Assembly: GCA_902554705.1 (NCBI GenBank)
Contig: CACDPP010000015.1
Span: 1 to 43,671 of the forward strand
Length of the DNA stretch: 43,671 nt
Origin: Paracoccaceae bacterium
GTDB lineage: Bacteria > Pseudomonadota > Alphaproteobacteria > Rhodobacterales > Rhodobacteraceae
Direction of reading: 5' to 3'
The translations under genes and the position numbers were made by a program. This document shows, piece by piece, positions 26,444-43,671 of this stretch; position 1 is the first letter of the stretch; the number at the start of each line of letters is the position of its first letter. Below the pieces are notes generated by a model, which had not been told where the DNA came from, did no database searches, and saw only the letters and a program-made list of their open reading frames with translations.

Positions 26444-27379
26444 ATGACTAATAGACAAAAAATTTCAGATGATATTACAATTGTCGTAAGTGCTTTTGGA
26501 ACTGAAAATGAAATTTTTGTTAGTTCTCTTAAAAATAGTATTAATAATATTTATCCAAACTCGAAAATACTATTAATCGGTTATGATATTAAAACTGATG
26601 ATATTAAAATTAATAATTTAAAGAAAAAAATACCTTTTGTTAAAAAATCTCCCGGAAGTTTAAAAATAATTTGTTGGAATCAAGGTATGAAATTAGCTAA
26701 TTCGAAATATGTTTTATTTATGGACCTAGATACCATTTTATTAAAAGATATCGATAAATACTTATATAAACTTAATTCTGACAACATTGACGTTATATTC
26801 TCATGGCGGAAGAATAATCTACAATGGGTAAATACAGGAGTTTTGATTGTTAAAAAAAACAACAGAACTCTAGATTTATTTAATAAATATGAGTTGAATA
26901 TGCTGAAAGATATCGAAAACAATAACAATGATCAGTATACATTTTCAAATTTCTTAAATAAAAATGTTGATCTTAGTGATAAATCTAGAGATTACGAGAT
27001 TGAAATACAAGCTAATGGTATAAATTTCTTAGGAGTATCTGGAGATTATATAAATAATCATACGTCTCTAGACACTTGGTTCGATGATACCTGCATTCTT
27101 CATTTAAAAGGTGTTATGGGAACGATCATTCTTAAGACTGATAAAGAAAATAGGTATAATAATTTTATTAAAAATAATATTCACTGCTTGTCAAAGACAC
27201 AAGTACTGAACTTATCACATAGGATAGATCTATTTAAAAAATATACAAAAGATGTTTATAGCAAAGATATAATTGATGTGATGAAGGTTCACAAAGGGGG
27301 GAAGTTTTTTTATTGTTTTTTAAGAAGGGTTAAAAATTATTTGAATATAAAATACAAACATTTAACTAATAATTATTGA
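26444..27379 (+). CDS. Glycosyltransferase of nucleotide-diphospho-sugar type
   Basis: The product is 311 residues. A GT-A core is visible: the first strand TIVVSAFG, then YVLFMDLDTILLKD with the metal-binding DLD (94-96), then WVNTGVLIVKK and an NNDQYTF segment, similar to GT8/PF03407-type transferases. No membrane segments. It is extremely AT-rich, rich in Asn, Ile and Lys, unlike the genes before it. The Wzx-like gene follows after 19 bases. It probably adds one sugar to a lipid-linked surface glycan; donor unknown. Confidence 0.65.
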   Translation: MTNRQKISDDITIVVSAFGTENEIFVSSLKNSINNIYPNSKILLIGYDIKTDDIKINNLKKKIPFVKKSPGSLKIICWNQGMKLANSKYVLFMDLDTILLKDIDKYLYKLNSDNIDVIFSWRKNNLQWVNTGVLIVKKNNRTLDLFNKYELNMLKDIENNNNDQYTFSNFLNKNVDLSDKSRDYEIEIQANGINFLGVSGDYINNHTSLDTWFDDTCILHLKGVMGTIILKTDKENRYNNFIKNNIHCLSKTQVLNLSHRIDLFKKYTKDVYSKDIIDVMKVHKGGKFFYCFLRRVKNYLNIKYKHLTNNY

Positions 27380-27398
27380 GTAGTAAATCTATATTTAA

Positions 27399-28637
27399 AT
27401 GAATATATTCTTTAAAGTTTTTAATTTTCTATATAAACATGGTCACTGGACTGTTACAGGAAGGGTTTTTGTTGGTTCACTAAATTTATTACTTTCAGTG
27501 GTTTTAACAAAGTTAATGACTGCCAGTGATTATGGTAATTACCAATATTATATATCAATCTTTTTATTATTAGAATTTTGCTCTAACCCAGGGGCATCTA
27601 GTGCAGTTGTGAAATATGTTGCATTAGGTAAGGATTGGTCTTGTAACTTTTTATTAAAGCAACGAATTAAATTTTCATTTATTGCGAGTATTATTTTTGC
27701 AATTTTAAGTATGTATAATATTTACGTCGGTGATTATTCTGAATCAATCATTTATTTTTCTTTTTCAATTCTTTTTCCTTTTTATTTTTCATATGACTTA
27801 TTTTTATACTATTTACATGCTAAAATTGAGCTTAAGAGACTTAATATAATTTTAATAATTCGTTCATTAACACAATTATTTTTTACAATTCTAGTTTTTA
27901 AATTATCAAATAATGTTTTAATTACTTTAATTTCATTTATTGCATCTGCATCAATGTTAAATTGGTTTTTTTATAGAAAAAATGTAAAAAATTTTTCTAT
28001 TAGTAATCATGAACCAAATGTAAAAAAAGATGCACAAAAAATGGCAATTGGTTTGTCATTAGTAGGTATTCTGGGCACAATTGTAATGCAAATTGATAAA
28101 ATTTTAATTTTTAACTTAATTGACTCTAAAAGTTTAGCAATTTTTAGCATAGGTATGATGATTGGTATTTCGATTAATTCACTTTTCAAATCCATATTAT
28201 CAAGCCTAGATGCTAAGCTTGTTGTTCATAATATTAAAAAATGGCATTATTGGTTTATTTTATTCTTTGGAAGTATAATTGGCGCAATTATTTCTTTAAT
28301 AACTCCATTTATAATCGAAATACTATATGGGGAGGAGTATAAAGAGAGTGCCTATTACGCTTCTATAGTAATTCTTTCTTTAGGCCTTTATTTAGTAAAT
28401 CATTTGCTTGATAATGCTTATATGCTGCATCACGAAAAAAATATTGTCCCTATTTATGTAAGTAAAGTAGGGGTTGCAATTATTCAATTAGCTCTAATTT
28501 TGTTACTATTTTTATTCGGATCATCAAGTAAAGAAATTTTAACATATTTACCATATGTGTATGTCTCTAAAATTTTAATACAAATTCTGATTATTAATTT
28601 AAGTGACCTTAAAATACAAAGAGATAATTTAATTTAA
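27399..28637 (+). CDS. wzx: Wzx-like polysaccharide flippase (MOP superfamily)
   Basis: The product is 412 residues, with about 12 hydrophobic segments over its whole length. The N-terminus has GRVFVGSLNLLLSVVLTKLM and a D-G-Y/F-type motif (SDYGNYQYY), as in O-antigen/teichoic acid flippases. It moves lipid-linked glycans across the inner membrane. It is exceptionally AT-rich; for example 27841-27900 has only 8 G or C in 60. Sits between a glycosyltransferase and a radical SAM gene. Confidence 0.8.
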   Translation: MNIFFKVFNFLYKHGHWTVTGRVFVGSLNLLLSVVLTKLMTASDYGNYQYYISIFLLLEFCSNPGASSAVVKYVALGKDWSCNFLLKQRIKFSFIASIIFAILSMYNIYVGDYSESIIYFSFSILFPFYFSYDLFLYYLHAKIELKRLNIILIIRSLTQLFFTILVFKLSNNVLITLISFIASASMLNWFFYRKNVKNFSISNHEPNVKKDAQKMAIGLSLVGILGTIVMQIDKILIFNLIDSKSLAIFSIGMMIGISINSLFKSILSSLDAKLVVHNIKKWHYWFILFFGSIIGAIISLITPFIIEILYGEEYKESAYYASIVILSLGLYLVNHLLDNAYMLHHEKNIVPIYVSKVGVAIIQLALILLLFLFGSSSKEILTYLPYVYVSKILIQILIINLSDLKIQRDNLI

Positions 28638-28728
28638 AATGTGTTATCAGAATGAAAATATTATTATTTATAAACAATCTATTTCTTTTAAATAGTTAAA
28701 TTATAAATACTTTTAAGGGAACTTGAAA

Positions 28729-30234
28729 ATGAAAAAAGCTAGGGTTTTGCTTTTAACGCCAAATCTAGTGGGTGTTAAAGATGGTTTGAATAGAATTCAA
28801 CCGTCCTTAGGCGTAATGTCTATTGCTCAAGTTCTTATAGATCAAGGCCATGTTGTTAAAATTTATGATACAGCTCTTGAAGGATGGTCCCAAAAAAGGG
28901 ATTTAGGGGATAATAAGGTATTAATTGGTCAATCTGATGAAGAAATAGAAACAGCTATAAGAGAATTTAACCCTGATGTTGTTGGAATTTCAATTCTCTT
29001 TTCAAACCTTAATTACTCTGGGCACAATTTAGCAAAAATTATAAAAAAAATAGATAAATCTATAACAGTGATTTTAGGCGGAAATCATGTTTCTAATTCT
29101 GTTGTTGACTATAAAAACTTTATTATTCAACCGGGTGACAAATCCCCTATTATTAAAGATTTAGAGGATCCAAATTTTGATTTTGCAATAATAGGTGAAA
29201 GTGATTTTACATTTGCTACTTTTGTAAACAAAATAATATCAGGCGAAGATTATTCTGCACTTCCTGGTTTAGCAAAAAAAATCCCAGATGGATCATATAA
29301 AATAAACCCAACTGCTAGAATTGAAGATGTTACTAAGCTTCCAATTCCTGCTAGAAATCTAGTGAATATGGAAGGTTATTTTAACATTGGGGCTTTTCAT
29401 TCAGCTAAATCAAGATCTGATAGAGTGTTGAATGTTATGTGTTCAAGAGGATGTCCAGAAAAATGTACTTTTTGTACTACTCCTCAGATGTGGGGAACAA
29501 AAGTAAGATGGAGAAATTTAAGTGATATTGTACAAGAAATTAAACAAGGTATATCGGATTTTAATATTAAAGAAATTCAGTTTGAAGACGATACACTCAC
29601 AGCACATAAGAAAAATTTATTTGGGTTGTGTGACGAATTAGAAAAGATTGGTTTGCCATGGTGTACACCTAATGGAATTAAAGCAAACTATCATTTAGCT
29701 AAACAAACAGACATGTTTCAAGCAATGAAAGACTCCGGTTGCTACCAGGTAACTTTGGCTTGCGAAAGTGGTGTGCAAAGAGTGCTAGATAATATCATTA
29801 ATAAAAGATTAGACGTTAGTCAGATTCTACCTGCAATTGAGAATGCAAAAAAAGTAGGGTTGTTAGTTCATACTTTTTGGATACTTGGTTACCCTGGTGA
29901 AACTTATGAAGAGATGAGTGAAACTGTTCATTTTGCTATGAATAGTGGTGCAGACAGTTTTTCCTTTGCTATACTCAGCCCTTTGCCTGGAACCCCTATT
30001 TATAGAAAAGTAATTCGAGAAAATTTATGGTGGGATGGAAGAAACCTTGATGATTTAATGTTTCGATCATCTCTTTTAAAGGTCGATGGTTTTAATGGGC
30101 CTGATGAATTTGAACAATTTGTATCTAATGTTAATTTAACAGCCAATAAGATGCTCAAAGAAAATAACCCAGAAAGATTTAAGCTTAAATATGGCGAGAA
30201 CTATAACGAAAATGATTTAGTTAAGCAGACTTAA
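28729..30234 (+). CDS. B12-binding-type radical SAM protein
   Basis: The product is 501 residues from the ATG at 28729, chosen over a TTG two codons earlier because AAGGGA sits at normal distance. Residues 1-170 have the cobalamin-binding Rossmann layout (LLLTPN, then DVVGIS, then VILGGNH) but lack the DxHxxG histidine (the sequence is DTALEG, 47-52), so cobalamin, if bound, would not use that ligand. The radical SAM motif is C242-x3-C246-x2-C249, with an extra Cys at 238. FEDDTL and WILGYPGE are typical later elements. It probably modifies a sugar or lipid of the surface polymer. Low GC like its neighbours. Confidence 0.85.
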   Translation: MKKARVLLLTPNLVGVKDGLNRIQPSLGVMSIAQVLIDQGHVVKIYDTALEGWSQKRDLGDNKVLIGQSDEEIETAIREFNPDVVGISILFSNLNYSGHNLAKIIKKIDKSITVILGGNHVSNSVVDYKNFIIQPGDKSPIIKDLEDPNFDFAIIGESDFTFATFVNKIISGEDYSALPGLAKKIPDGSYKINPTARIEDVTKLPIPARNLVNMEGYFNIGAFHSAKSRSDRVLNVMCSRGCPEKCTFCTTPQMWGTKVRWRNLSDIVQEIKQGISDFNIKEIQFEDDTLTAHKKNLFGLCDELEKIGLPWCTPNGIKANYHLAKQTDMFQAMKDSGCYQVTLACESGVQRVLDNIINKRLDVSQILPAIENAKKVGLLVHTFWILGYPGETYEEMSETVHFAMNSGADSFSFAILSPLPGTPIYRKVIRENLWWDGRNLDDLMFRSSLLKVDGFNGPDEFEQFVSNVNLTANKMLKENNPERFKLKYGENYNENDLVKQT

Positions 30235-30558: not shown

Positions 30559-30690
30559 ATGAATTCATGGAAAGAGATTTGGAACAACAAACGGTCCGAG
30601 AATGTTTATGATTTGGCAGATCTAATCAAGCTCAATGGATTTGACAGCTGTGGCACTTCAATCAATACTGGAGTAGTAAGCCAATGGTGA
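30559..30690 (+). pseudogene. N-terminal fragment of a SAM methyltransferase, overlapping the next gene
   Basis: Forty-three codons from an ATG, opening with WKEIWNNKRSENV and ending NGFDSCGTSIN, the usual beginning of a family of SAM-dependent methyltransferases found in glycan loci (W-x-WE-K line and the NGFDS turn). The frame stops at a TGA that overlaps the ATG of the cytidylyltransferase gene. The SAM-binding domain is absent. It is either a remnant left by recombination or a retained leader that couples translation to the next gene. Confidence 0.5.
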
Positions 30691-31427
30691 GAACAGCCAT
30701 TATACTAGCCGCCGGTTTCGGAGCGCGGTTGGGGGACTTTACGGTTGAGATGCCTAAAGGCTTAATAAAGGTTGGTAAAAAGAGCCTTATCAGCCGCAGT
30801 ATTGAATGTTTGCTCAGAAATGGAGTAACCAAGATTTATATTGGTACCGGTCATCTTTCAGAACACTATGATGAATTGGCTACTAAGTATGATAACTTGA
30901 TTAGCTGTGTAAAATGTGATCGATATGCAATTAGCAGTAGTATGGATACACTCTTCAACTTGCGGAATGTTATCAATGAAGACTTCTTTTTGCTTGAATC
31001 AGATTTGCTTTATGAGGATAGGGCCCTAACGACTCTAAGAGAATCTGATCAAAAAAATATGGTTCTTGCTAGTGGCAAAACGTATGGTGGTGATGAGGTA
31101 TATATCGATGCTGATGACAAAGGTTCGCTTTTGTCTCTGACAAAAGATCTGGCTGCTGCTGATGGCGCATTTGGTGAATTCGTAGGTATTTCCAAAGTGA
31201 GCATTGAGGCTTATCAGCAAATGTGCGATATTTTCAGCCGCGAAGGTCCTCTGACAATTGATTATGAGTATGTCATGCCAAATGTTGCACACCCTGATAA
31301 TTTTATAGTGCATAGGATTGACGATTTGGTCTGGTGTGAAATTGACGATAGCAAACAACTTATGCGTGCTTCGAGTGAGGTCATATTTGCTTTAGATGCT
31401 GCAAACGTGCTTCATAGTCGTCACTGA
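30684..31427 (+). CDS. LicC/PntC-like nucleotidyltransferase (phosphocholine or phosphonate cytidylyltransferase)
   Basis: The product is 247 residues. The N-terminal signature ILAAGFGARLGD (7-18) and MPKGLI-VG-K-LI mark the sugar-phosphate/choline-phosphate nucleotidyltransferase fold. SSSMDTL and FLLESDLLYED (metal-binding Asp) resemble LicC and the aminoethylphosphonate enzyme PntC rather than hexose-1-phosphate enzymes. It would make CDP-choline or a CMP-activated phosphonate or related head group. The two LicD-type transferase genes directly downstream support that. No phosphonate-forming PEP mutase or choline kinase gene is in the window. Confidence 0.75.
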   Translation: MVRTAIILAAGFGARLGDFTVEMPKGLIKVGKKSLISRSIECLLRNGVTKIYIGTGHLSEHYDELATKYDNLISCVKCDRYAISSSMDTLFNLRNVINEDFFLLESDLLYEDRALTTLRESDQKNMVLASGKTYGGDEVYIDADDKGSLLSLTKDLAAADGAFGEFVGISKVSIEAYQQMCDIFSREGPLTIDYEYVMPNVAHPDNFIVHRIDDLVWCEIDDSKQLMRASSEVIFALDAANVLHSRH

Positions 31428-31450
31428 TCTAAATATTTACGGAGAACAAA

Positions 31451-32110
31451 TTGGGAAAAATTGACCATGAGTTTCTGAGCGATTGCTCACATGAGGAATG
31501 GTTGTCAAATCGACATAGCGTTGTTGCCTCGGATTTTGTCCCATTGAAAAAGCGCGAAGAGCTTTTTGTTGAATGCTATACTATGCTATCAGCGATGAAA
31601 GCGCGCGTTTGGATCGCAAATGGCACTTTGTTAGGAGCAGTCCGCGAGGGTGATTTTATCATTGATGATGACGATATTGATATGGATATGATTGAGGATG
31701 AGTTTCGTATTATTATGTATGATATGAAGTTAGCATTTATAGAAGCTGGATACGTGGTGCGACTACAAGATGAAAAAAATCCAAAAATGTCGATATATAA
31801 ATCAGGTTTCAAACTATCGATTGGAGGTTTGAAACCCTCCGGAAAATGGCTAACTAGGCCGATACAAAAATATCCAAGGCATCTTTTTTCTGAGGAAGAA
31901 TTTCTGGAGTTCAAGGGAATAAAATGCCTAGTTCCACATCCACCAGAAGACTATCTGGAACATGTGTATGGCAAAAACTGGAAGGTACCAATTAATAGTG
32001 ATGACTGGACAGAATATCATTCGATTAAATTTTGGAACTTTAGATCAAAAGCAGCATATTTAATTGCGTTAAAAATCTTGATAAAACGACTTAAAAAGCT
32101 TTTTTTATGA
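31451..32110 (+). CDS. LicD-family phosphotransferase
   Basis: The product is 219 residues starting at a TTG (31451) with GGAG 6 bases upstream; no in-frame ATG fits. The LicD signature is clear: ANGTLLGAVREGDFI (57-70) followed by IDDDDIDMDM (71-80), the acidic metal-binding cluster. LicD proteins transfer phosphocholine or similar phospho-groups from CDP-activated donors to surface glycans. It acts at the cytoplasmic face. The stop overlaps the start of the next gene (ATGA), so the two LicD-type products are made together. Confidence 0.85.
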   Translation: MGKIDHEFLSDCSHEEWLSNRHSVVASDFVPLKKREELFVECYTMLSAMKARVWIANGTLLGAVREGDFIIDDDDIDMDMIEDEFRIIMYDMKLAFIEAGYVVRLQDEKNPKMSIYKSGFKLSIGGLKPSGKWLTRPIQKYPRHLFSEEEFLEFKGIKCLVPHPPEDYLEHVYGKNWKVPINSDDWTEYHSIKFWNFRSKAAYLIALKILIKRLKKLFL

Positions 32111-33528
32111 CTCAAAAACTTATCGATTACAGCAAAGATGAGTTAGCTAGCCGCAAGTTAGACCTTGAAGAAATTTGCGATGTATTTGAGTCTCTTAGTA
32201 TAAATTGTCTACTAATTGACGGAGTTTTATTAGGTGCTGTAAGAGATGGAGATTTTATTGCTTGGGATTGGGATGTTGAATTGGCTCTATTCGAGGAAGA
32301 GGTTATTAATAACACCACGGTAATCTTGAACGCTTTGCATTTAAGAGGTTTTGAAATACTCTTGGTTAATCCCTTCTCATTAAACTACAAAATTAATGTA
32401 CGTAAAAGGGGAACAAAATTTTCTTTAGTCGGCTTGAGGTTATCAATGGGCTACCGATATAGAGTGAATTACAAATATCCAGCACGTTCATTTAAAACAT
32501 TAGACGAAATCACGTTTCTAGGAAAGCAGTATAAAACCCCATCCCATGTCGAGAGCCTACTTCAGTTCATTTATGGAGATTGGCAAACACCAAAAAGAGA
32601 GCGTCTTGATTCGAAGTATCTAAGCAAGCAAGTTTATATACCTAAAAGTTTAAATTTGCTTATTAAACTGATAATATTTTTACGCAATTTATCTATCGAT
32701 GTAGTTCATAAGTTTTTTAATATTTTTTGTAAAGTAATCCCAAGCTATAGAGAGTATTTTTTTTCTGTGGTAATGTTGAAAAGTGCTCTTAAAAAGAATG
32801 CTACATTTATAGAAATTGGTTCTAGTAATGGGAGCGAAATGGCAAGAGCATTATCTTACACTAAAGGTAAGATAAATGCACATTTAATTGAGCCTAGCCC
32901 AGAGAATTTGGAAATTGCCAGGAGGCGTCTCGCTAAAACAAAGTATGCAAAATCTGTAAATTTTTCAAACTCAGCAATATCATCAAAAAATGGTCTAATT
33001 GAATTCTTCTACAAACCACAAGATAAAAACCTCAGCAGTATCAGAAAACCAAAAGGCAAATTTGTAAAGCGAAATGTCCAATCACAAACTCTCGAAGATT
33101 TTATCTTATCAAACGACATAGATCAGCGTTCACATCTAGTCATAAAAATGGATGTCGAGGGTGCAGAGGCCCAAATTTTGAAGTCATCAGTAGGGATTTT
33201 TAAAAAGTATAAATCTGTCTCGATCTTGATTGAGGTTCATCCTCACGAATATGATGGTGATGAGATGTATTTTGCATTGCAAGACTTGTTTGATATTGGC
33301 TTTAAAGCCTCTTTTGTGGAGACCGCTTGGATACGGGCTCCCAAAATAATAAAGGAGTCTTTTGGAAGCCCAGCTAAATACTTTTTTAACAGAGGGTTGT
33401 ATTGCAATTTGCCGACTGATCTTGTCGCAAGAATTGCTAGCAAACCGTCAATGGATGTTGCTTTATTCAGACCGTTTTTCACAAGAAAAATTGTTAGATC
33501 TATTATGATTGAAAAGTTAAACGATTAG
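32107..33528 (+). CDS. LicD-like domain fused to an FkbM methyltransferase
   Basis: The product is 473 residues. Residues 20-160 are a second LicD-like domain: DGVLLGAVRDGDF (38-50) and WDWDVELALF (53-62), with WDWD in place of the poly-Asp run of its neighbour, so the metal site is altered but still acidic. Residues 220-400 are an FkbM-type SAM methyltransferase: FIEIGSSNGSE (234-244), LIEPSPEN (260-267) and KMDVEGAEAQIL (about 348-359). Fusing a phospho-group transferase to an O-methyltransferase suggests that one acceptor is both phospho-decorated and capped with methyl. Confidence 0.8.
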   Translation: MTQKLIDYSKDELASRKLDLEEICDVFESLSINCLLIDGVLLGAVRDGDFIAWDWDVELALFEEEVINNTTVILNALHLRGFEILLVNPFSLNYKINVRKRGTKFSLVGLRLSMGYRYRVNYKYPARSFKTLDEITFLGKQYKTPSHVESLLQFIYGDWQTPKRERLDSKYLSKQVYIPKSLNLLIKLIIFLRNLSIDVVHKFFNIFCKVIPSYREYFFSVVMLKSALKKNATFIEIGSSNGSEMARALSYTKGKINAHLIEPSPENLEIARRRLAKTKYAKSVNFSNSAISSKNGLIEFFYKPQDKNLSSIRKPKGKFVKRNVQSQTLEDFILSNDIDQRSHLVIKMDVEGAEAQILKSSVGIFKKYKSVSILIEVHPHEYDGDEMYFALQDLFDIGFKASFVETAWIRAPKIIKESFGSPAKYFFNRGLYCNLPTDLVARIASKPSMDVALFRPFFTRKIVRSIMIEKLND

Positions 33529-33593
33529 TTGATACAAAGTCATAATAATGCTAACCTAAACTCGGCGTTTCACTTCTAGGTTCAGAATTAAAT

Positions 33594-34274
33594 ATGGAAA
33601 ACTTATTGTCCAATTTTAATGACTTGACACCGCTTTCATTTGTTCAAGTTATTACAGCCATAATTTTAAGTATTTTATACAGTTTTATTATCGCCAAAGT
33701 TTATTTGTTGGTACATCGTGGCTACTCCTACTCAAAGTCTTACCTTCACACAATGATCATGGTGAGTGTCACCGTCGCTTTGATAATGGTGATCATAGGA
33801 TCTGAGATAGCGCGAGCTTTTGCTTTGGTGGGGGCAATGTCCATTATTAGATTTAGAAACCCTGTCAAAGATCCAAGGGATGTGGCATTTTTATTTGTTA
33901 CAATTGCGATTGGGATGGCTTGTGGAGTTGGGTTCTACATGTATGCTACGGTGTTTACTTTTACAATCGTCATTCTTATGCTTTGTATGCATTACTACAA
34001 CTTTGGTGACCTACCGAATAAGTCCTACGTTATAAAGCTTGTATCACCTTCTAACCAAAAGGACGAGATTTTAAGGGTATGTCAAAAATTTTGTTCATCG
34101 GTTAACTTACTTTCGATAGATTTTTCAGGTGAAGAGCCTACGAAAGAAACAATCGTTTTAGAAATAGAGCTTTTTAAGGGAGATAGTTACAACAAGCTTG
34201 TTACAACACTTCAAGGGCAATTAGCATTGGATCATATTAGTCTTTTGGCAGGTGAAAGTGATATTAACGCTTAA
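33594..34274 (+). CDS. DUF4956 membrane protein
   Basis: The product is 226 residues. Four hydrophobic helices cover about residues 15-145. The DUF4956 signature FALVGAMSIIRFRNPVKDPR (82-101) with AFLFVTIAIGMACG is clear. The C-terminal 80 residues form a soluble alpha/beta domain. Proteins of this family are often next to VTC polyphosphate polymerase and CotH genes, as here, and their function is not known. It could be a channel or a regulatory subunit for the polymerase. Confidence 0.85.
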   Translation: MENLLSNFNDLTPLSFVQVITAIILSILYSFIIAKVYLLVHRGYSYSKSYLHTMIMVSVTVALIMVIIGSEIARAFALVGAMSIIRFRNPVKDPRDVAFLFVTIAIGMACGVGFYMYATVFTFTIVILMLCMHYYNFGDLPNKSYVIKLVSPSNQKDEILRVCQKFCSSVNLLSIDFSGEEPTKETIVLEIELFKGDSYNKLVTTLQGQLALDHISLLAGESDINA

Positions 34275-34299
34275 TTACTTTTGGTTGAATGGATGATTT

Positions 34300-36978
34300 A
34301 TGGTCAAAGAAATCACAAGTAAAAAAAGATTTGTTTTTTTAATAACTGTATCATTTTTAGCTATTATTTTCTCCTTCATTATTTCAGCTCTTACCCCTCT
34401 TGCAAAATATAAATTTCTGTCAGACGATCCTCTTTATTTCAAAATTCTGGCTACGACTGCAGCAACATACGATGCCACAATTATAGGTTTCAATTCAATT
34501 GCAACTACACTTGACGGTGATAATCTAAATAAACCGGCAAACCTACCAAAGATTGAATTGATTGTAGAGCCAGGTTCAATTCAGAAAATGGCTAGCAATC
34601 TACCGGCATCGGCGAAAGAAAAATATTATAATGCCCAGCTTCTATACCCTGACGGTCAAATTCATGACGTGAAATACAGATTTAGAGGGCGCAGTATCTA
34701 TCACTGGGATCCTAAAAAGCCATCACTCAGAATCAAAACATCCAAAAAAAATCCATTTGAACAACTTCGGCATTTTAATCTTATAAATCCAGAAGATCGT
34801 GCAATGATCGCCAATTTTTATGGTGATTACTTAGCCGACAAGATGAAAATATTGACTCATAATACGAAATTTGTGGAACTTTTTATAAATCAAAAATATG
34901 TGGGTGTTTACCATTTTACTACCAATGATGATGAGGAAATGCTCCGCGCGAATGATCGTATGCCCGGTCCAATATATGTAGGAGACGAACTTTCTGACCT
35001 TTGGGAGATAGATCAGTTTAAAACAAAAGGTGATCTAAAAGCTCATAAAAACTTGCTGCCTTTGCAAATCCTGTTGGAAGCAATATACGCGAAAGATAGA
35101 AATGATCAGATTGATGGCCTCTGGAATATCCTTGCCAAAGAAAAATATGCAAAATTTAATGCTTTGCTATCTCTAGTTGGCGGTGTACATACGGACGTTA
35201 CGCATAACCATTTATATTATTTTGACCCCAGTCAAGGTCGCATTGAGCCAATAATATCTGATTTAAATGGACATGGTCTCCTGCTTTACCCCTCCCCAAG
35301 AGAGAGGTTTGTCATGGAATACAAACCATTTGTAGAAGTCCCCTTGAATGGCCGGAATAATCCTCTTTTAAATAAGGCTCTGCGTGACCCTGACTTTAGA
35401 CATTTAAGGAACAAATTTTTATATGAATATCTTTTAGCATCTGGGTCTTCTGAGACACAAAGAGCAGAACTGCAGAAACTATTTAACATTATTGATCCGA
35501 GTGTTCGAAGAGATCGTAACAAGGCATCCATCGTGGAAACTTTCGTTGGTTTTTGGCGGGTACCTTATTCAAACTTCCAATATGAAAAGTCTAAAAATGT
35601 GATTTTTGATTGGATTCAAAGACGAAACGAGTTTCTTATACAGGAGCTAGCATATTCTAAGGTCACTTTTGATGTAAAAAACCCGTCGACAGATACTAAA
35701 CTACTCGAAGTTTTGGTGGAGGGTAATTCTGCAGCCTTGTTCGATGCCGATGGTTTCGGTGAAAGTGTTTTTAGAAGGGCTGAAAATGGAGCAAAGGAAG
35801 TAATTTTCGGCAAAAATATACTGCATCCTGGATTAGCAGAAAAACCGGTAACTTGGGAGATTGGAAGACAAGTCTACGATTATCAGCTTGAAGCGGGTTC
35901 CAAGAAATATTTATTTGAGATTGAACCAGGCTATGATGTTGATCTCCTTATAGCTACCTTGGGTAATGCTTTTACTAATGCAATAACAGGTGAAGCTATC
36001 GTTCCAAAACTTGTCGGTAAAAATGATGAGTTTAGTGAAAACAATGTTGATACAGGTTCCAAACGCGTTAAAGACACCTCGAATAAGGTCCATGTTTTGG
36101 GGCCCGGTGAAGTTATATTGTCATCTAACTTAATTATTAATGCTGATGAAGAATTAATTGTTAAACCGGGTTCGACTATCTTGATGGCTGATGGCGTTTC
36201 AGTGCTTTCGAAGGGCAAAACAATATTTGACGGAAATCCTAAAAGTCCAATTGCTGTAAAGAGGTTGGATCAAGACAAACCATGGGGTGTTGTAGCAATT
36301 CATGGGCCCAGGTCAGAGGGGAGTATTATTAAAAATGCGACATTTTCAGGAGGTTCAACCGCTTTTCTAGAAAATCGAATGTTCTCGGGAATGCTGTCTA
36401 TTAGCTGGACCGAAAATTTTTTCATGAATAACTCAACTTTGGAAGAAAATGTTGTTTCCGATGACACGCTTCATGTCGCCCATAGCTCTTTCGAAATCTT
36501 AAATAGCAATTTCAAAAATTGCTTCGGTGATTGTATAGATTTTGATTATTCAAGAGGTAAAATTGGGCACATAAAGATAACTAACGCCAAAAATGATGGG
36601 GTAGATTTCATGCGGAGTGACGTAGAGGCTTCTCATATTGAAGTTTTGGGTGCTGGGGACAAAGGTTTCTCTATTGGCGAAATGTCACATGTAAAAATTG
36701 GCGGATCGAGGGTCTATGCTAGCGAGATTGGTGTTGCAGTAAAAGATATGAGTTTAGCGGAAATAGAGGGCTCTAACTTCTCTGAGAACAAAGTTGCCAT
36801 GAGCGTCTATTCGAAAAATTGGCGATTTGGTGGTCCTGGAAAAATGTTAATCAAAAATGTGGTATTTGATTTAAATAATGTAGATCTAGATGTTGAAGAA
36901 ACCGCGCAAGTTCAAATCTTTGATGGCGTAACTTTAGACGTCACAACAGGCGACGGTACGTTCAATTATGTTCGCTAA
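34300..36978 (+). CDS. CotH-like kinase domain fused to a right-handed beta-helix
   Basis: The product is 892 residues. An N-terminal helix (about 10-32) anchors or exports it. Residues 75-430 resemble the CotH atypical kinase fold: FRGRSIYHWDPKKPSLRIK (nucleotide-binding Lys), FVELFINQKYVGVYHF, and THNHLYYFDPSQGRIEPIIS-DLNG where CotH has its catalytic/metal Asp region. The order is right, but the terminal WDLD-type motif reads SDLNG. Residues about 640-890 repeat short strands with I/V ladders and N-D turns typical of a pectate-lyase-like beta-helix. It may phosphorylate or bind a surface polymer outside the inner membrane. Its end overlaps the VTC gene by 11 bases. Confidence 0.7.
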   Translation: MVKEITSKKRFVFLITVSFLAIIFSFIISALTPLAKYKFLSDDPLYFKILATTAATYDATIIGFNSIATTLDGDNLNKPANLPKIELIVEPGSIQKMASNLPASAKEKYYNAQLLYPDGQIHDVKYRFRGRSIYHWDPKKPSLRIKTSKKNPFEQLRHFNLINPEDRAMIANFYGDYLADKMKILTHNTKFVELFINQKYVGVYHFTTNDDEEMLRANDRMPGPIYVGDELSDLWEIDQFKTKGDLKAHKNLLPLQILLEAIYAKDRNDQIDGLWNILAKEKYAKFNALLSLVGGVHTDVTHNHLYYFDPSQGRIEPIISDLNGHGLLLYPSPRERFVMEYKPFVEVPLNGRNNPLLNKALRDPDFRHLRNKFLYEYLLASGSSETQRAELQKLFNIIDPSVRRDRNKASIVETFVGFWRVPYSNFQYEKSKNVIFDWIQRRNEFLIQELAYSKVTFDVKNPSTDTKLLEVLVEGNSAALFDADGFGESVFRRAENGAKEVIFGKNILHPGLAEKPVTWEIGRQVYDYQLEAGSKKYLFEIEPGYDVDLLIATLGNAFTNAITGEAIVPKLVGKNDEFSENNVDTGSKRVKDTSNKVHVLGPGEVILSSNLIINADEELIVKPGSTILMADGVSVLSKGKTIFDGNPKSPIAVKRLDQDKPWGVVAIHGPRSEGSIIKNATFSGGSTAFLENRMFSGMLSISWTENFFMNNSTLEENVVSDDTLHVAHSSFEILNSNFKNCFGDCIDFDYSRGKIGHIKITNAKNDGVDFMRSDVEASHIEVLGAGDKGFSIGEMSHVKIGGSRVYASEIGVAVKDMSLAEIEGSNFSENKVAMSVYSKNWRFGGPGKMLIKNVVFDLNNVDLDVEETAQVQIFDGVTLDVTTGDGTFNYVR

Positions 36979-37732
36979 TAGGTACGAGCTTAAGTATATT
37001 ATTCAAACTAAGAATATGAGCAAACTACTTGATAGTTTTGGGCAGATTTTGACTCCAGATAAAAATAATAAAAACAATCTTGGATATTACAACCACTCGA
37101 TCTACTTCGACACGCACAAGTTACGTTTTTACCGAGACAAACAGGAGGGTTTGCTGCAGCGATTGAAGCCTAGAATACGACTTTATCGTGGTGTCAACGA
37201 TTTCGAAATAAAATCTTTGTTTTTAGAGTTTAAACAAAAAAATGACCGGACAGTCTTTAAGAATAGAGTAGAAATTGATGCTCAAACCGCGACGGAATTG
37301 TTACTTGGCTGTGAGCAATCATATATTGACACGGTTGAAAGTAAAAACGAAACAACGGAACTCTTTTATCAACTTTCTAAAAAATATCTTCTCCGACCCA
37401 AAGTAGCGGTTAATTACAAGAGGTTTGCATATTTTAGCGAGTTGTATCCCAAACTTCGTGTAACTGTTGATCAATCTATAGAGGCGTCGCTTGATGTGTC
37501 ACTCCGAGCTAGAAAGTCGTCGTTTGCAAATATTCTCTCACCAAGATACACTCTCATTGAGTTTAAATACGACAGTAAATTACCAAAATTGCTCTCATCT
37601 ATCATTAGGGCGCATGAACTAAAAAATGTTACTTTCTCCAAGTATAGTAATGCGATGGAAGTTGCCTATGAGACGGCGCGCTCAACGCAGAACTACAGAC
37701 ATAACCTCTACATATCAGCCATAAAGGGTTGA
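36968..37732 (+). CDS. VTC-domain polyphosphate polymerase
   Basis: The product is 254 residues, nearly all one VTC tunnel domain. Diagnostic elements appear in order: RYELKY (5-10), YFDT (47-50), a basic LKPRIRLYR strand, LEFKQKNDRTVFKNR with the Lys/Arg phosphate ligands, VNYKRFAY, LRVTVDQ, YTLIEFKYD and FSKYSNAM. In yeast Vtc4 this domain makes polyphosphate from ATP inside a basic tunnel. Bacterial single-domain versions are largely uncharacterised. No membrane segment is present, so attachment to the membrane is likely through DUF4956. The start overlaps the CotH-like gene. Confidence 0.85.
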   Translation: MFANRYELKYIIQTKNMSKLLDSFGQILTPDKNNKNNLGYYNHSIYFDTHKLRFYRDKQEGLLQRLKPRIRLYRGVNDFEIKSLFLEFKQKNDRTVFKNRVEIDAQTATELLLGCEQSYIDTVESKNETTELFYQLSKKYLLRPKVAVNYKRFAYFSELYPKLRVTVDQSIEASLDVSLRARKSSFANILSPRYTLIEFKYDSKLPKLLSSIIRAHELKNVTFSKYSNAMEVAYETARSTQNYRHNLYISAIKG

Positions 37733-37745
37733 TAGAAAGCTTATA

Positions 37746-38546
37746 ATGTTGCGGTTTTACGATCAAAATAAAAATAGACTGGTCTATTTAGGTGAGGCTG
37801 CTTCTAGTGAATTCTGGGACGAGCAATGGTCTACATTACAAACTACAAAACAAAAGATTGAAAGCAAAAGAAATCCCATTGTCACCGGCAAAACGAAGAA
37901 ATACCTGTCTAAAGGCAGTCGCGTCTTGGAAGGAGGTTGTGGTCAAGGAGAGTACGTTTATTTATTGGAAAAGTCGGGTTTTTCAACTATTGGAGTTGAT
38001 TTTGCCAAAAAAACTGTAAAAAAAATCAATGCGCTTTTTCCAAGTCTGGACATCCGCTTTGGCGATATAAGGAATATGGATTTTGATGATGGCTTCTTTG
38101 ACGGCTATTGGTCGTTTGGGGTAATCGAACATTTCTATGATGGATACGAGGATATCGTTATTGAAATGAGTAGAGTTTTGAGGCCGCAAGGCTATTTGTT
38201 TATGACTGTACCAACAATGTCGCCATTACGAAAATATCTATCGCAAAAAGGAAAATACCCTCTTTGGGAGCATCAAAGCCAAGATGTTGAAAAATTTTAT
38301 CAATTTGCCCTTGATGCAAATAAAATCGTGACTGATTTTGAAAATACGGGCTTCAAGTTGCGTGAAATGCGCCCATATGGGGGATTAAAGGGCTTCAAAG
38401 ATGAGGTGACCTTTCTAAAACCTGTGCTGCAACCAGTTTTTGACAGTCAAAATATTTTTGTAAAGGTTATCAAAATATTTCTTGACTTCGTCTTGCAACC
38501 GTTTGCAGCACATACAACCCTTTTTGTATTTCAAAAAAATGATTAG
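37746..38546 (+). CDS. Class I SAM-dependent methyltransferase
   Basis: The product is 266 residues. Motif I is VLEGGCGQGEYVYLL (about 58-72), the acidic end of strand 2 is GVDFA, and motif III-like FDGYWSFGVIEHF (about 120-132) is followed by the EMSRVLRPQGYLFMTVP line of the Methyltransf_11 group. Lies in the same direction between the VTC and GT2 genes. The likely substrate is the growing surface glycan or an amine head group. The start is 13 bases after the VTC stop. Confidence 0.75.
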   Translation: MLRFYDQNKNRLVYLGEAASSEFWDEQWSTLQTTKQKIESKRNPIVTGKTKKYLSKGSRVLEGGCGQGEYVYLLEKSGFSTIGVDFAKKTVKKINALFPSLDIRFGDIRNMDFDDGFFDGYWSFGVIEHFYDGYEDIVIEMSRVLRPQGYLFMTVPTMSPLRKYLSQKGKYPLWEHQSQDVEKFYQFALDANKIVTDFENTGFKLREMRPYGGLKGFKDEVTFLKPVLQPVFDSQNIFVKVIKIFLDFVLQPFAAHTTLFVFQKND

Positions 38547-38567
38547 TTTCTTAATGGATTTTAAATC

Positions 38568-39485
38568 GTGGTTAAACCTATTTTATCTATCTGTATTCCG
38601 ACATATAACCGACAAAAGAAGCTGACGTCGCTACTTAAGTCTATTAAGTCTGAATACGAACAGAAAATTGAAGTAGTTATTGTCGACGATGGGTCTGAAG
38701 ATGGTACGGCTGAATACTGTAGACAATTAAAATGTAATTTTAAGCTGGTTCTGACCGTTCAGAAAAATCAAGGAAGGTCTTCAGCACTTTATAATTCAAT
38801 AAAAAAAGCCCAGGGGGAGTTCATAATAATAATGGATTCTGATGATAGATTTTTAGTTGGGGCTATAAATACGATTATACAGAACCTGATTAAATATGAG
38901 AGAATTCTGTCCGAAGACAGAGTATGCGGCCTTGTTTTTAACTGTGTTGATCAAAAGCAGAGAATTATAGGTAAAAACTTTAAGTTTGAAGGTGTAAGCA
39001 ACTTTTTTAAATATAGGGCTGACGAGAGTGTGTTTGGTGATAAAAAAGAAGTGGTTAAGTCTCACCTTCTAAAGTCTGTTTTATATCAGCCATTTTATGG
39101 TGAACCACGTATGCCCACAGGTATTATGTGGAATCGTTTAGCAAGAAAATATGATGTCGTTACTTTAAAGTCATCTTTAGCAATAAAAGAATACCTTGAG
39201 GGTGGAATGTCGTCAAAAACCCGAGAATTAAGGATGAACAGTATTCGCTCAACTCTTCTGTATTACGAGGAGGGCCTAGTTGATTATGGCATCCAATACA
39301 AATCCGTTAGCTTTGCAGTTCGTTTTGCAGCAAATTTCATACGATACAGATTACACAGTAAATCCTTTAATCTTAGTGTTCTTTTGCTACTTACAATCCC
39401 TCAACTATTAATTCTGTTTTTGGCATTGCCTATTGGTTTTTTGCTTTTTTTGGGTGATGTCCTTCATGTCTATAGGAATACTTAG
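38568..39485 (+). CDS. GT2-family glycosyltransferase with C-terminal membrane helix
   Basis: The product is 305 residues, starting with GTG at 38568. The GT2 motifs are SICIPTYNR (7-15), VVIVDDGSEDGTAEYC (36-51) and IMDSDDRF (89-96). The C-terminal 40 residues form a hydrophobic helix (LLLTIPQLLILFLALPIGFL) that would place it at the inner membrane. It adds a sugar to a lipid-linked acceptor. It closes the plus-strand run of the surface locus and is convergent with the cyclase gene. Confidence 0.85.
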   Translation: MVKPILSICIPTYNRQKKLTSLLKSIKSEYEQKIEVVIVDDGSEDGTAEYCRQLKCNFKLVLTVQKNQGRSSALYNSIKKAQGEFIIIMDSDDRFLVGAINTIIQNLIKYERILSEDRVCGLVFNCVDQKQRIIGKNFKFEGVSNFFKYRADESVFGDKKEVVKSHLLKSVLYQPFYGEPRMPTGIMWNRLARKYDVVTLKSSLAIKEYLEGGMSSKTRELRMNSIRSTLLYYEEGLVDYGIQYKSVSFAVRFAANFIRYRLHSKSFNLSVLLLLTIPQLLILFLALPIGFLLFLGDVLHVYRNT

Positions 39486-39554: not shown

Positions 39555-41324
39555 TCAATCTTTCCAAATTGGACTAAGTCCGTCAATCAGGTAGTCCTTA
39601 CAAATAGACGGGGCAACCTTTTTATAATCTTCTATTGTCTTCACTTCTGGACGTTCTTCACGAAATTTTGTCAAAAATATTCTAGCGCGCTCAAAATCTC
39701 CCAGATGAACATAGATTGCTGCCCTCCAACCATTATAACGACTGTGCGAACCCCTATCATACAGGATATTGCACCACTCTAAGCTCTTATTTGAATCAGC
39801 CATTGCCATGTAAAGAAAAGGCATTAATCCCTCATAGCTTCTCCTGCCAATTGGATTCATGTCCATTGCTTTTAATAGATAATATTCTGCTTCTTCAAAA
39901 CGCTTTTCATTACATAGAGCCCAGCCGTAGTCATTATTTGACCCATCGTGGCTTGGATTCAGGTCCAATGCCTGTCTGGCATATTTCAATCGCTGTGGGT
40001 AATCTTTTTTAAGATTAAAAGATCTACTATACATAGCGACTGCTTCAGGATTATTAGGGTCTATAGAATAAGCCTTGAAAGACAGATCATGAAATAATAA
40101 CTCGTTTTCTATACGCTGATGTTGATGCACAGACATAAATAAGTTGCCATAAATGCGGCGGGCTTTTAGTACATAAGCGTCACACAAATCTGGATCCATA
40201 GCTATTGCACTATCGCAAAGTTCGAAAAATGCATTGTTTGCAGTTTCATCTGGATCGTCACCAGCCCATGTCTGGTTATATATAGCCAGCGCTTTCAAGT
40301 AATTGTCCCAAGCAGACAGAGAAGAAGGCGATTTAGTTCGTATGCGTTCGTGCTCTTTTCCTTTAAGAGCTGGAAAAATTAATGCTGCAACCTCCTGTGA
40401 CACCTCGTCTTGCACCTCAAAAATATCATCCAATGAGCGATCCCAGCGTTTAGACCAAACTTGTTGATCATCTTTTGAATCTACTAAGCTTGCTGAAATT
40501 CGTATCTTATTGCCACCTTTGCGTATGCTGCCCTCAACGATATAATCTGCTCCCAATCGCTGACCCAGTTCTGAGGATTTTATCTCTTTTCCTTTGAAGC
40601 TAAAGGTAGAGTTTCTAGCAATAACCGGAAAAGATTTCCAAGAAGAGAGATTAGCAATTATATCTTCTGTAACCCCATCAACAAAGTATTCTTGTTCTTC
40701 ATCATTAGTCATATTTTTGAAAGGCATTACAGCAATTGTTGGTGGCTTGCTTTCAGTTATTTCGCTTGAGCCAATTGAAGAACCTAAGCCCCGCTGTTCT
40801 AAACCCTCTAAGATCACGTCATAAGCATGTAATATAGTATTTTTTATTTTCTGACTGCCGAGGTCAGTAAATTTAAATTCCACTTTTTTATTTACAAAAT
40901 CATATATTGCTTTTGATAAAGACACCCCCCCTGGTTGGCTTAATACTTCTAGCCTTGCAGCATTATTTACCCCCTCGCCATAAAGGTTTGTCCCCTCTAC
41001 AATAACATCACCTACATTAAGACCAATACGAAACTGCATCTGTAAATCTTCTGATACAGATAGATTACGTTTATTAATCATTTTCTGAAATTCAGTAGCA
41101 CAAACTACTGCAGTTACTGCACTCTTGAATTCAGCAAGAACTGAATCTCCTGCTGTATTAAAAATACGAGCATCATATTTCTTGAAAAGTTGGTCCATGA
41201 TATCACGACAGGCCCGAAGACTTTTAAGTGTAGAATTCTCATTTCTTTCCATAAGAGCACTAAAATTAACAACGTCTGTCACAAATATAACTGCGATTTT
41301 GCGAATAATCTGATCTTCAGTCAT
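39555..41324 (-). CDS. Class III adenylate/guanylate cyclase with TolB-like and TPR domains
   Basis: The product is 589 residues with AAGGAGAG before the ATG. Residues 8-170 are a class III nucleotide cyclase domain with both metal Asp residues (Asp17 in VTDVVNFS and Asp60 in NTAGDSVLAEF) and the NxxxR transition-state pair (Asn120 and Arg124 in GVNNAARLE). Residues 190-315 match the FlgO/TolB-like unit often fused to these cyclases (TIAVMPFKNMT, DGVTEDII, ADYIVEGSIRK). Residues 340-580 are TPR-like. It probably makes cAMP in response to an unknown signal; no membrane helix is present. Confidence 0.85.
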   Translation of the reverse strand: MTEDQIIRKIAVIFVTDVVNFSALMERNENSTLKSLRACRDIMDQLFKKYDARIFNTAGDSVLAEFKSAVTAVVCATEFQKMINKRNLSVSEDLQMQFRIGLNVGDVIVEGTNLYGEGVNNAARLEVLSQPGGVSLSKAIYDFVNKKVEFKFTDLGSQKIKNTILHAYDVILEGLEQRGLGSSIGSSEITESKPPTIAVMPFKNMTNDEEQEYFVDGVTEDIIANLSSWKSFPVIARNSTFSFKGKEIKSSELGQRLGADYIVEGSIRKGGNKIRISASLVDSKDDQQVWSKRWDRSLDDIFEVQDEVSQEVAALIFPALKGKEHERIRTKSPSSLSAWDNYLKALAIYNQTWAGDDPDETANNAFFELCDSAIAMDPDLCDAYVLKARRIYGNLFMSVHQHQRIENELLFHDLSFKAYSIDPNNPEAVAMYSRSFNLKKDYPQRLKYARQALDLNPSHDGSNNDYGWALCNEKRFEEAEYYLLKAMDMNPIGRRSYEGLMPFLYMAMADSNKSLEWCNILYDRGSHSRYNGWRAAIYVHLGDFERARIFLTKFREERPEVKTIEDYKKVAPSICKDYLIDGLSPIWKD

Positions 41325-42605: not shown

Positions 42606-43671
42606 TTATGAAGAGTTTAGGCTTTCAAATGCATTATTAAGGAATGGTTCATATTTGCGCCATGCTTCAGAGCTTCCTTGAAAAACTTTTTTTCTAACCT
42701 GTTGTTGTGATGCTGTTCTTACAATGCGTTTGTTTTTATGCGGTGATAAACATGCCTCTTCCCAGTCTAACCCTAGGTGGTCAATTAGCTTTTTGGTTTC
42801 GCTTTCTTGGTCAGTTGTTAGTTTCTCATAGTTCAAATTATAAATTCTATCAGTATATTCTGATTGCCAAAGCTCCATTAGATCAGTGTACAACTCATAA
42901 TATGAAACAACATCCTTTAAATCATAGCAATATCCTAAACCTTTTGTAGTGAAATATTGCTTATAATTCGACCAGCAGGTAGCAGCAGCATTTCGTTGTG
43001 CATGAACAATTTTAGCCTCTGGTAAAGCAGAACAGATCAACGGAATAAACCGAAAATTATGAGGCATTTTGTCTATTACAAAATGCTTTCCATTTGATAA
43101 GTGCGATAACTCTAATAGGTACCTCCGTCGAAACTCAGAAATAGCACCAATGTTTACCGATGTAGGATCTTCAGGTAATTTTTTTCCAAAATGTTGAACA
43201 TAATTTAATTCCCCTGCACCAACAACTTTAGAATGTGATGATATTATCTGTTCAATGAGGGTCGTTCCTGATCTTGGCATGCCAAGTATGAAAATTGGTG
43301 TGGATTCAATCGAGCATTCTTTTATTTGCTTTGATTGTTTTAAAAAATGAGGTTGTGTTTCTTTCAATCTAGTGAACAGTTCTTTGTCTTGATTTATTGA
43401 GTACTTTAGTAGCTTTTTACGCAATGCGTTACCTTCAGATAAGTGATTAAAGGCCAGATCTAGTTTGCCAACGTCCTCATACATTTTAGCTAATGCAAAA
43501 CTTAAACTGCATCTTGCATCTTCTCTCAAATCTTCTCGTTTATAAAGCTGTTGAACCTGAAGAAACTGTTTATCCTCTAAAGTATATTTTTTGATAGAGC
43601 TTAGCATATGATGCGCCTCAGCATAATCAGGCTTAATAGAAAGTGCCTTTTTGTAAGTCTCCATCGCCTCT
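42606..43671 (-). CDS. TPR-sulfotransferase (partial, runs off the right edge)
   Basis: At least 354 residues; the N-terminus lies outside the window and the visible part starts within a TPR unit (YKKALSIKPDYAEAH). The sulfotransferase domain begins at IFILGMPRSGTTLIEQI, the PAPS 5'-phosphate-binding loop, followed by KVVGAGELNYVQHF, the 3'-phosphate site region with RNAAATCWSNYKQYF, and the C-terminal QGSSEAWRKYEPFL. Fold and motif order match marine TPR-sulfotransferases of the tyrosylprotein-sulfotransferase type. It would sulfate a glycan or protein. A decayed relative lies at 13864-14202, and its TPR-coding DNA matches that of the TPR-oxygenase gene. Confidence 0.85.
   Translation of the reverse strand, partial: EAMETYKKALSIKPDYAEAHHMLSSIKKYTLEDKQFLQVQQLYKREDLREDARCSLSFALAKMYEDVGKLDLAFNHLSEGNALRKKLLKYSINQDKELFTRLKETQPHFLKQSKQIKECSIESTPIFILGMPRSGTTLIEQIISSHSKVVGAGELNYVQHFGKKLPEDPTSVNIGAISEFRRRYLLELSHLSNGKHFVIDKMPHNFRFIPLICSALPEAKIVHAQRNAAATCWSNYKQYFTTKGLGYCYDLKDVVSYYELYTDLMELWQSEYTDRIYNLNYEKLTTDQESETKKLIDHLGLDWEEACLSPHKNKRIVRTASQQQVRKKVFQGSSEAWRKYEPFLNNAFESLNSS

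Follow-up and report, generated by a model that had tools for sequence, protein, structure and literature searches.

We analyzed a 43,671-nucleotide (nt) stretch of DNA (the window) from Paracoccaceae bacterium, an alphaproteobacterium of the family Rhodobacteraceae (GenBank assembly GCA_902554705.1, contig CACDPP010000015.1). The window is one contig (C15) of a 1.85-Mb genome that is 69% complete. Our subject is a run of eight plus-strand genes at positions 30684-39485, which encode, in order, a cytidylyltransferase, a LicD-type transferase, a LicD domain fused to a methyltransferase, a DUF4956 membrane protein, a CotH-like protein, a VTC-type polyphosphate polymerase domain, another methyltransferase, and a GT2 glycosyltransferase. 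The genes are separated by gaps of 13-65 nt or overlap by 4 or 11 nt. Genes were called by a longest-ORF (open reading frame) script, and 20 of the 34 listed ORFs of the window were scanned against Pfam. The original prediction, which was made from the sequence alone, proposed these eight consecutive genes, and all of them were found where it had placed them, each with a Pfam assignment above the family cutoff.

We argue that the genes probably make up two modules, one for phosphonyl tailoring and one being the DUF4956-CotH-VTC trio, in one transcription unit within a surface-glycan cluster. Searches for promoter and terminator patterns found none above shuffled sequence.

The cytidylyltransferase and LicD genes

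The first gene (30684-31427; Pfam NTP_transferase, 36.5 bits) had been described as LicC-like. The cytidylyltransferase part of that label stands, but the enzyme appears to be of the PntC type, with a predicted specificity for CTP and 2-aminoethylphosphonate (AEP). Its best match among solved structures is PntC from Treponema denticola (Tde-PntC; 6pd1, E = 1.3e-50), with LicC far behind (1jyk, E = 1.1e-11), and 87 of the 204 alignment columns are identical between the window's enzyme and Tde-PntC. As given in part of the published account of Tde-PntC, replacing R15, K25, or K153 with alanine drops the activity below 10%, and E104 and E196 are placed near the amine of AEP, while LicC has aspartate at both places (PMC6697681). 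The window's enzyme keeps all five residues (R15, K25, K154, E105, and E195). Because the enzyme is nearer to PntC than to LicC and the five residues are kept, its sequence makes it more likely that the LicD half of the locus transfers AEP than choline. Decoration with choline-like or phosphonate-like groups had been proposed; given the same relationship and residues, we retain the phosphonate option and demote phosphocholine from first choice. The broader proposal, a pathway in which LicD enzymes add phosphorus-containing groups, is supported, and phosphonate groups are probably attached by the products of this surface-sugar gene cluster.

The second gene (31451-32110; PF04991, 43 bits) encodes a LicD-type phospho- or phosphono-group transferase with acidic D-x-D motifs at residues 72-77, which we take to be the acidic LicD core. 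In the third gene (32107-33528), a LicD domain (PF04991, 26.7 bits at residues 31-61) is fused to an FkbM methyltransferase (PF05050, 47.7 bits at residues 237-389). Both genes exceed the PF04991 cutoff (22.6), yet they align over just 36 and 31 residues, respectively, of the 227-position profile. A separate class I methyltransferase (Methyltransf_11; 37746-38546; PF08241, 61.5 bits) follows the trio, so the two methyltransferase activities that had been noted are both present. The last gene (38568-39485; PF00535, 88 bits) encodes the GT2 glycosyltransferase, with a single hydrophobic segment near its C-terminus.

Like the Pnt loci, as far as they are covered by the part of PMC6697681 that we draw on, this half of the locus combines a PntC-type cytidylyltransferase with LicD-like transferases and glycosyltransferases. 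Unlike them, the window has no phosphoenolpyruvate (PEP) mutase motif, no decarboxylase or AEP transaminase is found among the scanned proteins, and the LicD-FkbM fusion and the trio are added. Given the missing motif, we rejected de novo synthesis of phosphonate within the locus. As in the lic phosphocholine pathway (LicA-D), cytidylyl activation would be followed by transfer by LicD, but here the cytidylyltransferase is of the PntC type and the window has no match to the choline kinase LicA.

Of 289 genomes of the class, 22 have PntC-like proteins, the window's genome among them. The PEP mutase motif lies in an open frame in 7 of 24 other PntC-like places in Alphaproteobacteria; for five of these, the flank amounts to just about 1.5 kb. 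(Another occurrence of the motif, in locus L128, is a chance match in a 75-amino-acid, off-frame sequence.) According to part of one report, phosphonate genes adjoin glycan enzymes in SAR11 and Prochlorococcus (PMC8931226). The PntC-type assignment adds a candidate route by which phosphonate could reach bacterial surfaces, and it bears on marine phosphonates.

The DUF4956-CotH-VTC trio

The trio had been thought to be a recurring set, and it is: we recognized all three genes at 52 loci, including the window. Ignoring inserted genes, the order is DUF4956-CotH-VTC at 49 loci and DUF4956-VTC-CotH at 2, and at the remaining locus CotH is on the opposite strand. Searches with DUF4956 and CotH alignments found the trio in Nitratireductor, Marinomonas, a bacterium of the Rhodospirillales, an uncultured Roseobacter, and SAR11, ocean bacteria of very high abundance. 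The CotH member is present in 56 of the 297 SAR11-family genomes that we sampled (17 of 128 among those of good quality), and we took 40 stretches from 37 of these 56 genomes. (We take the SAR11 family to be Pelagibacteraceae: over 2-7 kb, several of the stretches are 72-85% identical in DNA to loci named as Pelagibacteraceae.) One step of the comparison of loci left out L072, L141, and ORFs of under 130 or over 800 residues. In a tree, the window's trio groups with those of L073 and L058 (support 0.999) and then with that of L063 (support 1.0). A search of the order for VTC matched 22 of 390 genomes, including the window's; among the 23 VTC stretches that we examined, only L050 has a relative of the window's CotH.

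The trio is an autonomous cassette and a separate module from the LicD half. It is usually found without LicD and does not need it, as 49 of the 52 trio-carrying genomes have no Pfam match to LicD. (These whole-genome scans covered LicD and PelG in 52 genomes, which do not include those of L058 and L065. Many of them are incomplete; quality figures are available for 46, of which 20 pass 90%/5%.)

The system had been called undescribed. The trio has in fact already been published as an accessory of pel operons in Gram-positive bacteria, and the claim survives for its occurrence outside pel in Pseudomonadota. Part of one report places genes for CotH, a polyphosphate polymerase, and DUF4956 next to pel genes in streptococci, clostridia, and bifidobacteria (PMC7112168). 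In Streptococcus intermedius, according to part of a second report, deletion of SIR_1592 (MgtC-like, with an ACT domain) or SIR_1594 (CotH) alters the amount of Pel and aggregation, and by its authors' account they encountered the arrangement nowhere but at the pel locus (PMC12345266). We infer that SIR_1592 is a homologue of DUF4956. PelG (PF16933) is found in just 1 of the 52 trio-carrying genomes (G866), on contig C291 with the trio on contig C325, so the trio exists apart from pel in Pseudomonadota, as judged by PelG only. PelG is also absent from the window's 69%-complete genome; PelD, PelE, PelA, and PelF were not searched. We found no other paper on the function of the trio in the open-access literature, with subscription papers outside the search. 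As in the Gram-positive set, so far as the partial sources describe it (PMC7112168, PMC12345266), the three families adjoin, CotH is secreted or anchored, and the MgtC-like membrane part has an ACT domain. Here, however, CotH has a beta-helix instead of FN3, the hosts are Pseudomonadota, and the only PelG is on another contig.

The first gene of the trio (33594-34274; PF16316, 62 bits) encodes the DUF4956 protein, which appears to be an MgtC-like membrane protein with a C-terminal ACT-like domain. Its structural model is of moderate confidence (a predicted local distance difference test score, pLDDT, of 73) and shows a C-terminal domain resembling that of MgtC, along with about five long helices. 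The best Foldseek match is to the MgtC C-terminal domain (2lqj, E = 0.0065), with none below 0.001.

The second gene (34300-36978; PF08757, 69 bits) encodes a protein with an N-terminal membrane anchor, a CotH kinase fold, and a C-terminal right-handed beta-helix. In the model (pLDDT of 72 overall and above 90 in much of the helix), the kinase domain matches CotH of Bacillus cereus (5jda, E = 6e-13, template modeling score of 0.76 by target), and the beta-helix resembles carbohydrate-active enzymes, among others. The kinase fold is thus shared with the spore-coat kinase of Bacillus, but the trio's CotH also has the anchor and the beta-helix; an N-terminal hydrophobic segment is present in 45 of the 52 CotH proteins. 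By column identity, the beta-helix is the most constrained part of the protein: 26 columns reach at least 90% identity among the 52 sequences, and the beta-helix holds 18 of them against 8 for the kinase domain. Fourteen positions in the beta-helix are fixed in all 52 (D722, D744, D747, D749, D766, D769, D787, K788, S791, G793, E794, K815, D816, and K839), and several are spaced 21-22 residues apart, as expected for a ladder on successive turns. Because the beta-helix is under the strongest constraint, naming this protein simply a kinase may mislead.

The third gene (36968-37732) encodes the VTC domain (PF09359, 126 bits; its profile matches yeast Vtc4 with E = 3.5e-11). Loss of its tunnel residues would have counted against the original prediction, and they are not lost. 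R5, E7, K9, K67, R69, R71, E87, K89, K98, R152, D168, E198, K200, and K225 are invariant in all 52 proteins, and R164 is present in 51. In the numbering of Vtc4, K200, R264, R266, R361, R373, E426, K428, and K458 align with conserved positions of our profile; we take these residues to have tunnel roles in the yeast enzyme. By its sequence, then, the tunnel is intact, with invariant residues as in a working enzyme. Yeast VTC has an SPX domain. The window's VTC resembles the yeast complex in its tunnel domain (with K200, R264, R266, R361, E426, and K458 conserved), but it has neither an SPX domain nor a hydrophobic segment, and its membrane partner would be DUF4956. No yeast VTC chain was among the matches to DUF4956 in a sequence search.

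Mechanism and alternatives

Our best overall explanation is that a phosphonyl-tailoring module and an autonomous polyphosphate trio act on a surface glycan; we would put its probability at about 0.43. The PntC-type enzyme would activate AEP, or a group of similar size, as a CMP conjugate, and the two LicD enzymes would pass the activated group to sugars. The FkbM and Methyltransf_11 enzymes may methylate the glycan or the group, while the GT2 enzyme would build the glycan chain and a flippase encoded upstream would export it. On the cytosolic side, VTC would make polyphosphate from ATP, and the MgtC-like DUF4956 protein would hold or gate it at the membrane. Outside, the anchored CotH/beta-helix protein would act on the surface glycan, perhaps on the product of the first module, helped by polyphosphate. 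A polyphosphate-fed extracytoplasmic enzyme is the mechanism that we favor for the trio. If VTC does feed an enzyme outside the membrane, this would explain how a protein with a kinase fold works there without ATP. A more specific version is that the trio is a polyphosphate-powered machine: VTC would feed polyphosphate into the membrane, DUF4956 would pass it through, and CotH/beta-helix would use it as the phosphoryl donor on a glycan or protein, with the Asp/Lys ladder as the site for polyphosphate or the acceptor. We give this version a slim chance. If true, SAR11 would make widespread use of polyphosphate in a way that does not depend on PPK. Quite apart from mechanism, the trio matters because it is in many SAR11 genomes and its residues are fixed across very diverged proteins.

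Several observations weigh against our explanation, beginning with the phosphonate. The PEP mutase motif (EDKxxxxxNS) is absent from the window; the two PF13714 proteins in the genome, of which about 31% is missing, carry a different motif; and matches to AEP transaminase in the genome are all below the cutoff. Also, in L218 and L219, where a PntC-like protein is encoded next to PEP mutase, the E105 position is occupied by aspartate, as in LicC, so glutamate there is not required for a phosphonate context. The source of phosphonate could be encoded in missing sequence, the compound could be taken up, or the substrate could differ. The substrate might instead be phosphoethanolamine, phosphocholine, or a polyol phosphate, with a phosphodiester and no phosphonate as the decoration. 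The failure to find PEP mutase in this incomplete genome favors that alternative, as does a choline-kinase-family match just above the cutoff on another contig, but the enzyme is nearer to PntC than to LicC and has both PntC-type glutamates, and we consider it somewhat unlikely. In the trio, Vtc4 K281 and K455 have no conserved counterpart in the alignment, and D299 is present in only 7 of the 52 CotH proteins (the window's has both D299 and D321, and D321 is present in 48). We take D299 to be the catalytic aspartate of the CotH kinase and presume a catalytic role for D321 as well. As to the surface glycan, a loose tie to the trio does speak for our explanation: among the 40 SAR11 trio stretches, 18 match profiles for epimerase, GT2, FkbM, or LicD, compared with 2 of the 20 controls, which were taken from trio-carrying genomes at coordinates that we chose. 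Fisher's test gives p = 0.006, but this is not a clean probability, given the relatedness of the SAR11 loci. For GT2 alone, the two sets do not differ (5/40 versus 2/20), and within 20 kb, glycan families are no more frequent among genes adjacent to the trio than among more distant ones. Tallies of the 25 commonest Pfam families, made for 120 genes near the trio and 120 far from it (with one further gene in each set), include glycan families in both. The neighbors of eight other trios are mainly housekeeping genes or lack family assignments; L089 has a polysaccharide-deacetylase-type gene nearby. Finally, deletion of the polyphosphate polymerase SIR_1593 in S. intermedius leaves a strain that still aggregates and makes Pel, with no change described in the part of the report that we cite (PMC12345266).

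This last result, with phenotypes given in that part of the report for the SIR_1592 and SIR_1594 deletions only (PMC12345266), is what would be expected if the trio were a polyphosphate-independent regulator of surface polysaccharide, in which VTC senses or hydrolyzes ATP or polyphosphate, DUF4956 signals as MgtC does, and CotH/beta-helix binds or trims the polysaccharide. The resemblance of the DUF4956 C-terminus to the MgtC C-terminal and ACT domains fits such a role, and so does the resemblance of the most conserved part of CotH to carbohydrate-active enzymes. We regard it as unlikely, given the invariance of the VTC tunnel residues, which is what a working enzyme would show. The original prediction joined LicD and the trio in one system, which is weakly supported. 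In its present form, there would be one dedicated system in this lineage, and the trio would phosphorylate or anchor a polymer that the LicD enzymes decorate. The genes are on the same strand with short gaps, and although LicD is rare in trio genomes, it adjoins the trio in 2 of the 3 that have any LicD: the window (both genes) and L063 from SAR11, with a related trio (one gene). In the third (G1260), LicD is on a contig without the trio (C10:3231-3803). Over 175 residues, the LicD of L063 shares 33% identity with the second LicD of the window, and L063 also has a relative of the window's Methyltransf_11 protein near its trio (28% over 105 residues); the order there is methyltransferase, LicD, an APS-kinase-like gene (9393-9878) that directly precedes the trio, and then the trio. 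LicD being beside the trio in two of three cases raises the odds of a dedicated system, from slim to low. On the other side, besides the trio-carrying genomes that lack LicD, L063 is the only one of 57 other loci with trio-type CotH that has LicD nearby. (We searched these with a three-sequence profile built from the LicD domains of the window and L063; Pfam scans of chosen neighborhoods agree, and flanks are short at L058, L088, and L157, among others.) Also, L073, whose trio is nearer to the window's than that of L063, belongs to a genome (G574) that is 96% complete and has no LicD. So separation of the two parts is the rule in related genomes, with L063 having both together, and a dedicated system is quite unlikely.

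Neighboring genes and variants

The cluster extends upstream on the plus strand (26444-30234), with genes for a nucleotide-diphospho-sugar transferase-like protein (26444-27379; PF03407, 35.3 bits), a polysaccharide flippase-like protein (27399-28637; PF01943, 35.8 bits), and a B12-binding radical SAM enzyme (28723-30234), whose nearest NCBIfam model is the Sden_1168 P-methyltransferase (237 bits, below the cutoff of 575). Because of these genes, we view the eight-gene stretch as part of a larger surface-glycan cluster, with a gap of 449 nt after the radical SAM gene. The radical SAM gene is just upstream of the PntC-type gene, whose product weakly matches the Sden_1164 model, and a relative of it flanks the trio in L086. 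After the cluster, a convergent gene (39555-41324) encodes an adenylate-cyclase-like protein with TolB-N and TPR parts. The trio of L067 is flanked by genes for a TPR-sulfotransferase, a sulfotransferase, and a 2-oxoglutarate (2OG)-Fe(II) oxygenase; the window also has a TPR-2OG-Fe(II) gene (23790-25634) and a sulfotransferase gene (42606-43670), about 8 and 5 kb from the ends of the trio.

We rejected a plasmid origin: the CotH and LicD-FkbM proteins have no plasmid match, and the cytidylyltransferase matches 32 records, with 29% identity to the best covered. No relatives of VTC were found in viral contigs.

Variants of the trio also exist. In the window's family, L028-L049 have a second type of VTC, with no CotH found and mostly preceded directly by a short gene about the size of a DUF4956 gene; Pfam confirmed DUF4956 for one of these loci (L030), where VTC is near ABC-type, histidine kinase, and response regulator genes. 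In a sister clade, a fourth gene of about 340 amino acids lies between DUF4956 and CotH (L144:11213-12241, L147:7522-8544, L148:11346-12395, and L153:7345-8367), with a relative in L142. These proteins are 26-34% identical across loci and have, by eye, a hydrophobic N-terminus; the L147 copy has no Pfam match. In L149 (8512-9135), L157, and L158, a protein of about 207 amino acids beside or within the trio matches part of the CotH of L123 and L130, which is longer (about 1,000 amino acids); this suggests a natural fusion.

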